Below, piece by piece: positions 9,157 to 55,873 of a DNA stretch of 64,000 bases; within the stretch, counting starts at the first letter, position 1, and every line of letters begins with the position of its first letter. The DNA lies in contig NZ_JARWAC010000010.1 in the NCBI RefSeq assembly GCF_029846175.1, positions 310,001 through 374,000 of the forward strand. Reading direction: 5' to 3'. A program made the position numbers and the translations under genes. This DNA comes from Sphaerisporangium sp. TRM90804 (GTDB lineage Bacteria; Actinomycetota; Actinomycetes; Streptosporangiales; Streptosporangiaceae). The notes below the pieces were generated by a model. The model saw only the letters and a program-made list of their open reading frames with translations. It had not been told where the DNA came from and made no database searches.

Positions 9157-10818
9157 TCAGCCGCGCAGGAACCCGTTGACGACGAGCGGCAGCGACGCGT
9201 CCAGGCCGACGACGTTGAGCACGCCGAGGTCGCCCGGGTCGGCGATCGTGTAGCCGGCCGCCGTCATGGCCGACACGACCACCCGCGTGGCGGGGTTGAC
9301 CGCGTGCCGGTAGGCGGTGAGCGCCTGGGAGGGGTGCGAGCGGCCGGCCCAGGTCTCGTTGTCGGTGAACACCACGATGCCGTCCACGTTCAGCTTGACG
9401 TCCTTCGCCCACGTGAACGGGAGCGACAGGTCGGTGCCGCCGCCCGAGGGGCGCCACGTCGCGATCTCCCGCAGGTTGGTGCGCGGGGTGACGCGCGAGG
9501 CGTGGACGCTGGTGTCGACGTCGATGAGGTGGACGTTCTCGCGCTCGATCCGGGCCAGCATGACGGCCATCGCGCTCGCGACCTCGTACGCGGTGCCGAG
9601 GGGCGAGCCGCCGACGGTGAGAGGGGAGTGCCCCATGGAGCCGGAGGAGTCGACCGCGACCAGGAGCCGCCTGCCGGACGGCCGCACGGTGCCGAAGGCG
9701 TGCTCGTAGGTCTCCTCCAGGGCGTCGAGGATCGCGGGCAGCGGCTTCCACCTCTGGACTTCGGCGCGCCGGTTGGGCAGGGAGCGGCCGGAGGCGTAGA
9801 CGCGCATCGCGAGCCACGCGTCCATGGGGTGGACGCGTGCCCTGACGACGGCGGCGGGGTCGCGGAGCCGGGCGGCGGCGCGCGCGGTGGCGTCCCCCAT
9901 CGGAGTGAGGGTGCCGATGCGGGTCATCCGAGCCAGGTTGCGGATGAGCGCCGTCATGCCGATGGTGTCGACCAGGGCTTCCCACACGGACGGCTCGCGG
10001 AGCATGGCGTCGGGGAGGAACTCCCACGGCACCCGCGCCTCGCCGACCACGCGGGCCGCCTCGGCGGGGGTGGTGACGGCCTTGGCGGTGAGGAACCGGT
10101 CGACGGCGGGCAGCTCGTCGCGGGCCTCGTCGTCGGAGACGTTCCCCGCGATCCATCCGAACAGCGTCCGGCGCTGGGGGGTGTCGGCGGAGGGGTGGGC
10201 GATGCGGAGCACGTCGCGCAGCGCGAACGCCTCCCTGGCCGGGGTCCTGCGCTGGGCCGCCTTGCACACGCGGAACGCGACGTCGTCCGGAGCGCCCTCC
10301 AGGAACCACGACCCGAGCGCGGTGCGCAGGCTGCGGCCGACTACCGGCGCCGTACCCCGCCCCGTGGACTTGCCGCCCAGGTTCTTGTGGTAGCCGAAGA
10401 ACGTCGCCAGGTGGTCGGTGGTGCGGGCGACCTTGGGCAGGGCGAGCTTGGCGGCCTGACGGGTGCCGGGGTCTCCCTTGGCGTAGGCGGCGGCGAGGGC
10501 GAACAGCGCGGGCCGGTTCTTGGGCGCGCGGGGCGGCCGCGCCGTCGAGATGTCGGTGAGCAGGGCGACGACCCGCGGGCCGTCCTCGGCGATGGCCTCG
10601 AACAGCACGTCGGCGTTCTCCGAGGTCAGCTTGTCCTGGCCGACGTAGTAGGTACCGCCGGAGGTGCCGAGAAGGAGGAAGTCCTCCAGGCGGTTCCAGG
10701 TGTCCTTGGCGTGGACGTAGCCGCCGGCGGCGTTCTTCACCTGGTCGGCGCGGCCGGGGATGGGCTGGTTCTGCGGGGTCGCGACGGTGGAGATGGACGC
10801 CAGGGGGTCACGAGCCAT
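9157..10818 (-). CDS. rsr: TROVE/vWA-domain RNA-binding protein (Ro60 homologue, Rsr-like)
   Basis: About 553 residues. ATG 10818 (MARDPLASI...) has GGAGG 7 nt upstream; the longer frame to 11058 would read through the RNA genes. The first 350 residues have the HEAT-repeat-like TROVE character (LEDFLLLGTSGGTYYVGQDKL, AREAFALRDVLRIAHP), which forms the RNA-binding ring of Ro60. The last 180 residues are a von Willebrand A domain with an intact MIDAS (VAVDSSGSMG, D390) and VFTDNETW. Ro proteins bind Y RNAs and misfolded RNAs and, in bacteria, can tether the exonuclease PNPase. Two tRNA-like RNAs lie immediately upstream on the same strand, as expected for a Ro/Y-RNA locus. No RtcB ligase or PNPase gene is in the window. 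Confidence 0.93.
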   Translation of the reverse strand: MARDPLASISTVATPQNQPIPGRADQVKNAAGGYVHAKDTWNRLEDFLLLGTSGGTYYVGQDKLTSENADVLFEAIAEDGPRVVALLTDISTARPPRAPKNRPALFALAAAYAKGDPGTRQAAKLALPKVARTTDHLATFFGYHKNLGGKSTGRGTAPVVGRSLRTALGSWFLEGAPDDVAFRVCKAAQRRTPAREAFALRDVLRIAHPSADTPQRRTLFGWIAGNVSDDEARDELPAVDRFLTAKAVTTPAEAARVVGEARVPWEFLPDAMLREPSVWEALVDTIGMTALIRNLARMTRIGTLTPMGDATARAAARLRDPAAVVRARVHPMDAWLAMRVYASGRSLPNRRAEVQRWKPLPAILDALEETYEHAFGTVRPSGRRLLVAVDSSGSMGHSPLTVGGSPLGTAYEVASAMAVMLARIERENVHLIDVDTSVHASRVTPRTNLREIATWRPSGGGTDLSLPFTWAKDVKLNVDGIVVFTDNETWAGRSHPSQALTAYRHAVNPATRVVVSAMTAAGYTIADPGDLGVLNVVGLDASLPLVVNGFLRG

Positions 10819-10895
10819 GTCGGCCTCCGTGTGCCGTTCGACCCGCCGGGTGGCGGATGTGTGAGGGGGGTGGGGAGAGCGGATGTGGTGGTGTG
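10819..10895 (-). other. Leader between tRNA-like RNA 2 and the Ro-like gene
   Basis: This short leader carries two more CACATCCG/ACATCCG copies (minus strand, about 10884 and 10859) and GGGTCGAACGG, similar to the putative Ro-binding GUCGAA element of RNA 2, 14 nt before the GGAGG of the Ro-like gene. It may be part of a third, shorter RNA or a site for autoregulation by the Ro protein. Confidence 0.3.
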
Positions 10896-11040
10896 TGCGC
10901 CGGTTAAGCCGGCGTCCTGGGCCGCTGGACGACACCCCGAGGGGCGGCGGGATTCGAACCCGCGTGACCGGCACCCCATAACCGACGTACTTCGACCCGC
11001 TCTCCCCATGCTCGTCAGCTCTGCCGGCGGCACGGATGTG
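10896..11040 (-). ncRNA. tRNA-like RNA 2, candidate YrlA-type Y RNA
   Basis: Read on the minus strand, a T-arm is unmistakable: GCGGG, loop TTCGAAT, CCCGC (10963-10947). Before it is an anticodon-like arm GTCGG/CCGGT (10986-10982 with 10971-10967), and GGGG/CCCC (11007-11004, 10944-10941) can close the tRNA-like part. Outside this, GCTGACGA (11019-11012) pairs with TCGTCCAGC (10932-10924) leaving one bulged C, a feature typical of Ro-binding stems. GUCGAAG at 10996-10990 resembles the bacterial Ro-binding consensus as I remember it. A CGCCGG/CCGGCG hairpin (10914-10898) ends the unit. It cannot be a normal tRNA: there is no CCA-type acceptor end and no proper D-arm. The ends given are approximate. 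Confidence 0.6.
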
Positions 11041-11049
11041 GTGTACCGA

Positions 11050-11186
11050 CCGGAGCATCAGGTCGCCAGACGACCCGACAGGACTCGAACCTGTAATGAA
11101 TCACCAGTGATAACCAGCCGGATTCGACCCGTACCACCGGCAGTGCTGACGAACGACCAGGTCTGGAGCCGACACGGATGTGGCGT
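11050..11186 (-). ncRNA. tRNA-like RNA 1, candidate YrlA-type Y RNA
   Basis: On the minus strand: a D-arm-like hairpin GCCGG/CCGGC (11141-11137, 11121-11117) with a 15-nt loop, a short hairpin ATCA-CTGG-TGAT (11111-11100) in the anticodon position, and a T-arm ACAGG, TTCGAGT, CCTGT (11094-11078). The flanks GGTC...GTCAG (11158-11146) pair with CTGGCGACC (11069-11061), closing the whole fold outside the tRNA-like part as in Y RNAs. It starts with the same CACATCCGTG as RNA 2. A TAGCGT box at 11241-11236 could be the promoter of both RNAs. Ends are approximate. An old tRNA pseudogene pair is the main alternative, made unlikely by the closing stems and the Ro gene next door. Confidence 0.6.
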
Positions 11187-11300
11187 CGCCCCCGGCGTCT
11201 CGGGTGCCCACTCCAAGCCCTGTGAACCGCATACAACGCTACCGAGCGATTTCATCCGACGCATTCCCATTTCGGAAAACGCGGGCACGCGTTGGGAACG

Positions 11301-54835: not shown

Positions 54836-55558
54836 TCAGACGGGCCAGGACTCGCGGCGCCAGGCGGCGTCCCAGAACATCCACTCGTAGCGGGACGTGG
54901 TGGTGAAGTGCTCGCGGGCCTGGGCGCGCTGGGCGTCGGTGGCCTCTTCGCCCGCCTGGTCGGCCAGGGCCACCACGCGGCGGACCACGCCCTGGAAGGC
55001 CTCGTCGCCGTACACCGAGATCCAGCGCTGGTAGAGGGGGTCGGGGGAGGATCGTTCGAGCAGCGCCTCGCCCACGCGGGCGTAGATCCAGTAGCAGGGG
55101 AGGACGGCCGCGAGGCCGTCCAGGAACGAGCCTCCGTACACGGTCGCCAGCAGGTAGCTGGTGTACGCCCGGGTGGTCGGGCCGACGGGCAGGGCGGCTG
55201 CCTGCTCGGCGGTGCCGCCCAGGCCTTCCATGAAGGCGGCGTGCATCTCCTGTTCGGCGGCGATGGCGCCCACGGCGTCGCTCGCGAAGGCCCGCACGCC
55301 GTCGTCGCTCGGCGCCCGGGCGGCGCAGACCGCCAGCGCGCGGGCGTAGTCGCGCAGGTAGTGGGAGTCCTGCACCACGAAGTGCCGGAACGCGTCCCGG
55401 GGCAGCGACCCGTCGACCAGGCCGGTGATGAAGGGGTGGTCGAGGATGGCCGAGTAGATCGGCGCGATCCCGTCCCACATCTCGCGGCTGAGCGGCGGCC
55501 GTCCGGTGGCATGCCCGGACGCCGGGGCGGACGAGGACAGGGTGACTTCAGACGTCAT
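54836..55558 (-). CDS. tenA: TenA-family thiaminase II / aminopyrimidine aminohydrolase
   Basis: 240 residues. TenA hallmarks: HPFITGLVDGSLPRDAFRHFVVQDSHYLRDYARAL, then EQEMHA, and the catalytic Cys region VLPCYWIYARVG. It salvages thiamine-derived pyrimidine. A TPP riboswitch lies directly upstream. No other thi gene is in the window. The start (55558) is next to the riboswitch. Confidence 0.92.
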   Translation of the reverse strand: MTSEVTLSSSAPASGHATGRPPLSREMWDGIAPIYSAILDHPFITGLVDGSLPRDAFRHFVVQDSHYLRDYARALAVCAARAPSDDGVRAFASDAVGAIAAEQEMHAAFMEGLGGTAEQAAALPVGPTTRAYTSYLLATVYGGSFLDGLAAVLPCYWIYARVGEALLERSSPDPLYQRWISVYGDEAFQGVVRRVVALADQAGEEATDAQRAQAREHFTTTSRYEWMFWDAAWRRESWPV

Positions 55559-55564
55559 CAGGAC

Positions 55565-55655
55565 TGACTCCCTACGCCGGCATGACCCGGTCAGGTTCGA
55601 GCGGTCTGCGGCCGTGTCAGCCGCACTCTCAGTCCGGTACGCCGGACTCCCGCGT
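55565..55655 (-). ncRNA. TPP riboswitch (THI element)
   Basis: On the minus strand: GGGAGTCCGGC...CTGAGAGTGCGGC...CCGCAGACCGC, then CGAACCTGACCGGGTCATGCC and GGCGTAGGGAGTC. CTGAGA and the GAACCTGA...GTAGGGA segments are the hallmark thiamine-pyrophosphate-binding parts. It ends 7 nt before the tenA start, which would let it control tenA translation initiation. Confidence 0.95.
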
Positions 55656-55873
55656 TCTGTCGCAACGAGACTAGCGCGTCCGCCCCCACTTAAATCCAGG
55701 AGGGCTCCAAGCCGGGCGGGCCGACCAGAGGGCCCGTCCGCGCCGGGGCGGGGTGATCACAGGGGTCGGATTCCTCCCCGGGGGCTCCGTAGCTCACGCC
55801 TCGTATAGCGGAAAAGCCGTCACGGCCACGCGGCGCCCTTCGCGGGGCTACCCTCGAAGCAGGTGATGGTGAA

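Follow-up and report, generated by a model that had tools for sequence, protein, structure and literature searches.

Vertebrate Y RNAs follow a plan of a Ro-binding stem and a loop, and in the bacterial YrlA RNAs dihydrouridine and pseudouridine are made by DusA and TruB. In Deinococcus a Y RNA tethers the Ro protein Rsr to PNPase, according to excerpts of the published accounts (PMC4726728, PMC8058203, PMC8394870). The Salmonella operon is given as rsr-yrlBA-rtcBA in an excerpt of PMC7790460, and Y RNAs bound to Rsr in Mycobacterium smegmatis are described in an excerpt of PMC4726728, which cites Chen 2014. Here we analyse a stretch of 64,000 nucleotides (nt), termed the window, from Sphaerisporangium sp. 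TRM90804 (assembly GCF_029846175.1, contig NZ_JARWAC010000010.1, positions 310,001–374,000 of the forward strand). It contains a gene (ro) for a Ro60/Rsr ortholog, preceded by two tRNA-like RNAs. All features described lie on the minus strand of the window, and coordinates are window positions. The genes, the conserved RNA structures, their linkage to ro, the permuted order of the tRNA-like arms, the closed acceptor and the specificity of a motif in the ro leader are established here. Taken together, the comparative evidence indicates that this is very probably a self-contained Ro ribonucleoprotein (RNP) cassette with an array of tRNA-mimicking Y RNAs.

The Ro protein

The ro gene (9157–10818) starts with the ATG at 10818, ends at 9157 and encodes 553 amino acids. 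Its Shine–Dalgarno sequence, GGAGG at 10824–10828, was read from the sequence. The protein comprises a TROVE (HEAT) ring and a vWA domain that carries the metal ion-dependent adhesion site (MIDAS) as DSSGS. Both domains of Ro60/Rsr are matched in Pfam (vWA_Ro60, PF25045, expectation value (E) 6.4e-42; TROVE, PF05731, E 3.7e-19), in agreement with the first-pass annotation of this DNA, which had named a TROVE/vWA gene with the RNAs directly upstream on the same strand. Among solved structures, the closest matches are Deinococcus Rsr (2nvo, E 1.9e-81) and human RO60 (E 7.9e-74). In a hand alignment K170, R174 and H187 of human Ro60, which we take to have RNA-binding roles, correspond to K186, R190 and H208. 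The two basic residues K186 and R190 are each conserved in 38/38 orthologs and H208 in 37/38, while D390, S392 and S394 of the MIDAS are kept in all 38. A search of the source genome for TROVE genes found this one as the sole copy, and 6 of 11 genomes of the genus have Ro.

Units upstream of ro in the relatives

A genome scan for Ro relatives gave 39 loci. The 37 with an intact upstream region were used, making 38 with the window; L039 (incomplete) and L041 (a 57-residue piece) were dropped before counting. A search by motif yielded 83 units, with at least one in each of 37 of the 38 loci; the units were assigned to classes by position and sequence. Class I is distal to ro (24 units), class II lies in the middle (23 units, including copy 1 of the window) and class III is next to ro (22 units, including copy 2), with two further classes of seven units each in Herbidospora. 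Classes I, II and III are all represented in Microtetraspora malaysiensis NBRC 100735. In each unit a variable domain, with the layout of tRNA in circularly permuted order and a closed acceptor end, is carried on a conserved stem of Ro type, GGGUCGAA...CGGUUAUC...CAYAUCCG.

A covariance model built solely from the class I units of the relatives (R1) was searched against the 38 loci at E 0.01. This gave 106 matches upstream of Ro: one in a single locus (L010), two in 16 loci, three in 11 and four in 10. The single match of L010 overlaps the start codon of ro, and a 37-nt match in L021 is doubtful. Both window copies are found by R1 (68.3 bits, E 1.3e-14 for copy 2; 55.5 bits, E 2.4e-11 for copy 1), and since the model was built only from relatives the copies are more than chance resemblances. 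With 106 matches in 38 loci and the strong covariation described below, we take the window Y RNAs to be real despite their low Rfam scores. Two non-identical copies in a row had at first been thought unusual; two to four matches are the rule, in 37/38 loci, and Salmonella has the tandem yrlBA (excerpt of PMC7790460).

At the head of the array some loci have mini Y RNAs, termed class 0, which are stem-loops of 76–85 nt (L005:5369–5448, L008:5387–5466, L024:5368–5452 and 14 more). The 17 looked at resemble the other units in their stem but lack a tRNA domain, and CGGUUAUC is unchanged in 15 of them. Three Ro loci, of which one is divergent, occur in a single Spongiactinospora genome (TRM90649: L010, L014 and L037), and none of the three lacks a Y unit.

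The two Y RNAs of the window

Copy 2 (10871–11007) is a class III unit and lies proximal to ro. Starting at its 5′ end, the RNA enters an outer helix (11007–10995 with 10884–10872, read from the sequence), passes into an upper helix (10987–10979 with 10906–10898) and then into a helix resembling an anticodon stem (10972–10967, GCCGGT, with 10913–10908, GCCGGC), which closes the cloverleaf and is the pairing favoured by comparison. There follow the T-arm (10963–10947, GCGGG-TTCGAAT-CCCGC), the closed acceptor hairpin (10946–10933) and the D-arm (10930–10914), after which the strand returns through the three helices. Copy 2 therefore has the YrlA order, with the T, acceptor and D hairpins permuted inside a stem. 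It is supported by the class III covariation and by a closing stem with five of five pairs.

Copy 1 (11024–11139) is a class II unit in the middle position, placed in alignment A3, and has the conserved Ro stem and the upper helix. Its domain contains a T-arm (11094–11078, ACAGG-TTCGAGT-CCTGT) and a closed acceptor hairpin (11077–11059); no D-arm is recognisable in it, and of the YrlA order it retains the T and acceptor hairpins only. The outer stem is extended, with 25 of the 26 positions of the 5′ strand (11129–11154) paired with the 3′ strand (11010–11035). The broad plan of a bacterial Y RNA, a long end-to-end stem with a conserved internal loop, is present in the units as a whole.

The two T-arms are exactly where the first-pass annotation had placed them, and the outer closing stems that it described are found in both copies. 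Its anticodon-like hairpins fared less evenly: there is a short hairpin, ATCA-CTGG-TGAT, at the place of the anticodon arm in copy 1, while the visible GCCGG-CTTAA-CCGGC hairpin of copy 2 competes with the cloverleaf-closing helix that comparison favours. The window thus has no anticodon-bearing unit and no intact anticodon loop. ARAGORN finds no tRNA in the window, and there is no cloverleaf with an open acceptor of the kind expected for a tRNA gene.

Upstream of copy 1 lies a probable deletion scar (11161–11220): judged by eye against the relatives, the sequence opens with a class 0 5′ end (about 11220–11201) and continues as a class I 3′ end (about 11190–11161). The window appears to have lost its distal, anticodon-bearing class I unit by deletion. 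A promoter-like –10 element, TAGCGT (11236–11241), was noted by eye, and a similar element precedes the array in several relatives. Several relatives have in common a promoter-like block, AGGTGTG, a gap and then CGGTAGCGT or CTACGGT before the first unit. The first part of this block is not a sigma-70 –35 box, and another sigma factor may drive the array.

Covariation of the helices

Folding of the class I alignment alone by RNAalifold gives an outer helix, an internal loop with CGAAG on one side, an upper helix of nine pairs and four hairpins. The hairpins come in the order anticodon arm, T-arm, closed acceptor and D-arm. Class I is thus a complete tRNA cloverleaf that begins with the anticodon arm, and the Y stem is accommodated between the D-arm and the anticodon arm. 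The class I structure has 40 pairs, 15 of which show double changes; 97.7% of cells are paired, against 34–44% when slid, and its covariation score was reached by none of 500 shuffles. Class III has 27 pairs, 12 with double changes, and 95.4% of cells paired, against 38–54% when slid; again no shuffle reached the covariation score. In class II the stem and T-arm are kept (26 pairs, 11 with double changes), and the remainder ranges from nearly full to T-arm and acceptor alone, several units having no D-arm or no anticodon arm.

The domain of class III is closed by an anticodon stem, as in YrlA. All five pairs form in 10 of 22 units, including that of the window, and at least four in 14 of 22; in this position-specific test five of five pairs form in 11% of swapped combinations. 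The unconstrained longest helix between the two sides of the core does not discriminate (class III mean 5.14 for own sides against 5.09 for swapped sides).

The outer helices fit their own unit. At least seven contiguous pairs form in 21 of 22 class III units, and swapped class III strands reach seven pairs at a frequency of 0.47 within the class and at most 0.02 with class I or II. The long outer stems have a mean of 22.5 of 26 positions paired in class I (range 15–25) and 23.1 of 26 in class II (11–26). Their mean energies are –43.7 (class I) and –49.3 kcal/mol (class II) for own strands, compared with –31.2 and –40.9 for swaps within the class and –14.6 to –29.2 for swaps across classes. 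Class III outer stems are shorter (15.6 of 26 paired; –29.9 for own strands and –26.3 for within-class swaps).

In pairwise comparison the stems of classes III, I and II have mean identities of 0.76, 0.77 and 0.78, and the cores 0.55, 0.73 and 0.47, respectively. By eye, units at the same position in related species bear D-arms of different tRNA types. The first-pass annotation had named arms that do not covary, and elements absent from relatives that keep the gene, as the outcome that would speak for decayed tRNAs; instead the helices covary, and at least one unit is present in 37/37 usable relatives.

Anticodon arm and closed acceptor

The structure line of the Rfam YrlA family has three hairpins and no anticodon arm. 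In class I a 7-nt loop is found at the place of the anticodon in 23 of 24 units. Within these 23 loops C32 is present in 22, U33 in 22, A37 in 23 and A38 in 23, and positions 34–36 spell eight anticodons (GTT in 7, TCT in 6, TCC, CAT, TTT and TGT in 2 each, TTC and CCC in 1 each).

When rotated into tRNA order, all 24 class I units align to tRNAs of their own genomes with scores of 65–96, compared with maxima of 42–56 in 20 shuffles each. Copy 2 of the window, rotated in the same way, scores 63 against a maximum of 45 in 100 shuffles; the tRNA set comprised 27 distinct sequences called by ARAGORN in 30 fetched loci, of 59 tRNA matches in the genome. tRNA-Glu had been expected as its parent from the D-arm and was rejected; the best alignments are to tRNA-Cys (63), tRNA-Gly (58) and tRNA-Glu (54), so no parent can be named.

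A continuous loop, 3–5 bases long in 63 of 83 units, connects the two strands of the acceptor, which therefore lacks a free 3′ end for charging. CCA occurs in the acceptor loop of 14 of the 83 units, and is found in none of the 24 class I units and in neither window copy. Six of the seven distal Herbidospora units have it (L030, L031, L033, L034, L036 and L038), where the triplet is perhaps a trace of a tRNA 3′ end.

Linkage to ro and orphan arrays

In all 38 loci of the clade of the window (clade A) the units stand beside ro, upstream and on the same strand. Among 200 genomes of the family, Ro exceeds the Pfam cut-off in 24. An R1 match at 2e-6 or better is present in 24/24 of these, and at 1e-8 or better in 23/24, counted by eye; on its own this is weak, as R1 matches, commonly weaker ones, also occur in many genomes with no such Ro match. 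The numbers of genomes with any R1 match (181/200 and 293/394) are not used as evidence, because many of these matches cover only model positions 31–10x, as two adjacent tRNA genes would.

R1 also reaches units of distant Ro genes that did not contribute to the model. Among the best 20 loci of a class-wide search, 18 lie outside the family clade A set, and 15 of these 18 have a Ro-like open reading frame (ORF) downstream, with E from 4e-85 to 4e-5 as calculated for a small set of ORFs. The other three are L129, at a contig end, L135, which is followed by another gene, and L142, with none in the stretch covered. By eye, most of the loci outside the set form a second clade, whose Ro is more distant and whose stem motif is CCCGGUGCGMAGGC, CGGUUACUUC, CUCGGG. 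In this clade (L066–L071, L126–L141) many units were seen by eye to have anticodon arms, and some ro leaders appear, by eye, to pair the Shine–Dalgarno sequence in a plain hairpin.

Two strong class I matches of R1 lie away from the Ro genes of their genomes. In the first (L143, genome G121) a class 0 and a class I unit (145.4 bits) stand together at 1149–1398, with no Ro ORF in the 5 kb covered. In the second (L144, genome G068; 1195–1616) there are a class 0 unit, a class I unit (132.2 bits) and a poor third unit, and of the Ro profile the next ORF matches the final 21 positions and no more. Ro is present elsewhere in both genomes. These look like arrays that have lost ro, and that they keep class 0 and class I units in its absence supports RNAs acting in trans.

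The neighbourhood of ro is otherwise variable. When ORFs of at least 150 residues not overlapping Ro were compared over the 39 loci, none was common to more than three outside Herbidospora; the seven Herbidospora loci have a common neighbourhood. Of 11 neighbours of ro in the window sought in the 39 loci, one helix-turn-helix protein matches in four (29–39% identity) and three are found in L007 only. rtcB is not next to ro, the one RtcB match of the genome being on another contig; given the lack of any widely common neighbour, its absence is not the distinguishing trait that it had been taken for. On this comparison the unit of Ro and Y RNAs behaves as a stand-alone cassette. Elsewhere in the window there is a thiamine pyrophosphate (TPP) riboswitch (55552–55663, 57.7 bits, above the Rfam gathering score), unrelated to the Ro locus.

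A hairpin in the ro leader

Past the last unit, just 5′ of the Shine–Dalgarno sequence of ro, lies a hairpin of sequence CACATCCGCC-ACCC-GGCGGGTCGAAC (10836–10861). Both strands of the Y-stem Ro motif recur in it with their order swapped, and a short loop stands where the Y RNA has its open ends. The hairpin is found in 19 of 38 loci by a strict pattern, and in 25 when close variants are admitted by eye, the six variants being those of L005, L018, L027, L028, L032 and L037. The pattern CAYATCCGC-N2-12-GCGGGTCGAA occurs in 9 of the 200 family genomes, once in each, and in 8 of the 9 it lies at the ro leader; read backward as a control, the pattern has no match in the same 200 genomes. The only match away from a known ro (G045:C13:129834–129854) is probably due to chance, and is counted as a miss.

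As the simplest reading of the leader hairpin we propose a Ro operator, to which Ro free of Y RNA would bind and thereby cover the ribosome-binding site. That the hairpin is a processing or boundary signal instead, or is left over from another unit, has a substantial chance of being correct, somewhat short of even. In the window about 10 nt separate it from the last unit, a boundary would be required at the 3′ end of the array, and arrays do lose parts by deletion, as in the window and L144. Yet both strands of the Ro motif are kept, swapped, around a variable short loop, in an arrangement not seen in the aligned units, and the hairpin adjoins the Shine–Dalgarno sequence.

Discussion

The cassette might work as follows. 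A promoter upstream of the array would give a transcript with several Y RNAs and perhaps also the ro mRNA, and the units would be freed by cleavage, perhaps by RNase III acting on the long class I and class II outer stems. As its conservation suggests, Ro would bind each Y RNA by the constant stem, comprising the outer helix and then the asymmetric internal loop GUCGAAG / CAYAUCC. The far end would present the permuted tRNA-shaped domain to a partner that recognises a tRNA-like shape; by analogy with Deinococcus and Salmonella this would be PNPase together with tRNA-modifying enzymes. In this way the array would let one Ro display several tRNA shapes. Free Ro in excess of Y RNA would bind the swapped motif in the ro leader and block the Shine–Dalgarno sequence.

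In its fullest form, then, one Ro would use exchangeable tRNA mimics that have a constant stem and swapped heads, up to permuted cloverleaves with eight kinds of anticodon, and would sense its own excess by the strand-swapped leader site. We put forward this whole, with the anticodon-bearing class and the leader operator as previously undescribed elements, only as a tentative proposal, at somewhat less than even odds. The titles and abstract openings of the literature on bacterial Ro and Y RNAs, a body from which Chen 2014, Wang 2018 and Sim and Wolin 2018 were left out, name no such array or leader. By the comparisons made here, the anticodon-bearing units of the relatives and the predicted Ro-motif hairpin in the ro leader are what is unusual.

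A number of results weigh against a cassette of this kind or qualify the evidence for it. In the kind of search that the first-pass annotation had suggested, the Rfam YrlA model (RF02553) matches both places in the window at scores well below the gathering score of 69 (27.2 bits, E 0.001 for copy 2; 15.8 bits, E 2.1 for copy 1). A transfer-messenger RNA (tmRNA) match of Rfam overlapping copy 2 has 19.3 bits against a cut-off of 47, with an E of 7.6e-06 that is lower than that of YrlA. In 20 upstream stretches (from 18 close and two distant relatives) the best YrlA scores are 48.1 (distant) and 47.1 (close), none reaching 69; the Ro-linked units are therefore not filed as RF02553. Single-sequence folding of the window compared with shuffles gives no signal (z +0.23 for copy 2, –1.27 for copy 1 and +0.55 for the upstream stretch), and for this reason the evidence for the window Y RNAs is comparative. 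The relatives are closely related and three loci come from one genome, so that the covariations counted are not independent of one another. The number of further pair types in class III was matched by 43 of 500 shuffles, and outer strands swapped within a class often pair over at least seven positions (0.57 compared with 0.71 for own strands in class I, 0.67 compared with 0.83 in class II). A sigma-70 scan found no sigma-70-like promoter, and no terminator was found. Of the 38 loci, 13 lack the leader hairpin or have a broken one, among them every one of the seven from Herbidospora; the strict leader pattern is present in only 8 of the 24 Ro genomes, and none was seen by eye in the distant Ro clade.

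The role of the tRNA-like domains could also be other than tethering PNPase. They might serve as decoys for tRNA-acting enzymes or compete for such enzymes, among them anticodon nucleases, with several anticodons offered at once. This would fit the anticodon arm of class I, where U33 (22 of 23), A37 and A38 (both 23 of 23) are kept while the anticodon takes eight forms, and competitive inhibition of an anticodon nuclease by YrlA is raised as a possibility in an excerpt of PMC7790460. The same excerpt states that YrlA fragments were not detected in Salmonella, the window itself has no intact anticodon loop, and the variety of anticodons may be drift in a loop that does not decode. We consider a decoy role unlikely; it would be compatible with a tether and does not exclude one.

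A further possibility is that the structures never become separate RNAs and work purely in cis, serving the ro mRNA as a long leader or attenuator. Their constant position just upstream of ro on the same strand in 38 loci and the leader hairpin adjoining the Shine–Dalgarno sequence agree with this. The units, however, have self-contained stems and differ from one another in sequence, and their plan resembles that of Y RNAs shown to be separate in other bacteria (excerpt of PMC4726728). The orphan arrays keep their units with ro gone, or with about 20 of its last residues left in L144, and have reduced a probability that was already small, although these losses could be recent. We now regard a function in cis alone as very improbable. 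The least probable explanation of all, that the elements are tRNA genes, either decayed or working as circularly permuted genes that are later rejoined, can draw on the T-arms, the D-arms and canonical anticodon loops in relatives, on rotated class I bodies that align to tRNAs of their own genomes above shuffles, on relaxed ARAGORN calls for 54 of 82 rotated units (made without a shuffled control) and on CCA inside the acceptor loop of 14/83 units, six of them among the seven distal Herbidospora units, but it founders on the window where ARAGORN finds none, on acceptor strands joined by a loop with no CCA in class I or the window copies, on class 0, which keeps the stem with no tRNA domain, and on the several class II units without a D-arm or anticodon arm, while the conserved stem motif and the covariation speak against decay.

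A Ro RNP cassette with its own tRNA-mimicking Y RNAs is accordingly the reading that we prefer. The observation made in the first-pass annotation is confirmed, and its central claim of a ro gene with such RNAs is borne out by the R1 matches, the covariation and the presence in relatives. Its interpretation is partly supported: the proposed new actinobacterial Y RNA group holds insofar as the units are beyond the reach of the Rfam YrlA model and common to one family, and falls short in that actinobacterial Y RNAs were already known.

The units would form a matched set on one Ro, having no tRNA domain (class 0), a partial one (class II), one split at the anticodon (class III) and a complete one (class I), and comparison of classes 0, II, III and I would show which tRNA arms matter, and for which partner. 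If the leader hairpin is a true operator, it would offer a simple mechanism matching Ro to the level of Y RNA. The units could serve as the seed of an RNA family at present missed by Rfam, and arrays of up to four RNAs, some with a complete false anticodon, are a good place to ask what the imitation of tRNA is for.

Comparison with known systems

The closest described family is YrlA (RF02553). Like YrlA, the units stand beside ro, have a long end-to-end stem and carry a T-arm, a closed acceptor and a D-arm in permuted order, and copy 2 of the window is closed by a helix resembling an anticodon stem. They differ in the stem motif, which is GGGUCGAA/CAYAUCCG with CGGUUAUC, and in their low scores with the YrlA model (27.2 and 15.8 against 69), and the relatives add both a full anticodon arm and units without a D-arm or tRNA domain. 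A further clade of Y RNAs closer to tRNA was reportedly described by Wang in 2018, and may overlap with the units found here. With the vertebrate Y RNAs (RF00019) the likeness lies in class 0, whose units are plain stem-loops; RF00019 itself has no match at E 1 in the 20 upstream stretches.

Among bacterial Ro systems, the RYPER of Deinococcus radiodurans includes the closest solved Ro (Rsr, 2nvo), and its Y RNA tether is our working analogy. The present system differs in having several Y RNAs for each Ro. The Salmonella operon rsr-yrlBA-rtcBA similarly unites Ro with two Y RNAs; here, in contrast, RtcB is on another contig and no neighbour is common to more than three loci outside Herbidospora. 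The Y RNAs of Mycobacterium smegmatis are likewise actinobacterial and are reported to bind Rsr. Given Salmonella yrlBA and the Mycobacterium smegmatis Y RNAs, neither tandem nor actinobacterial Y RNAs are new as such.

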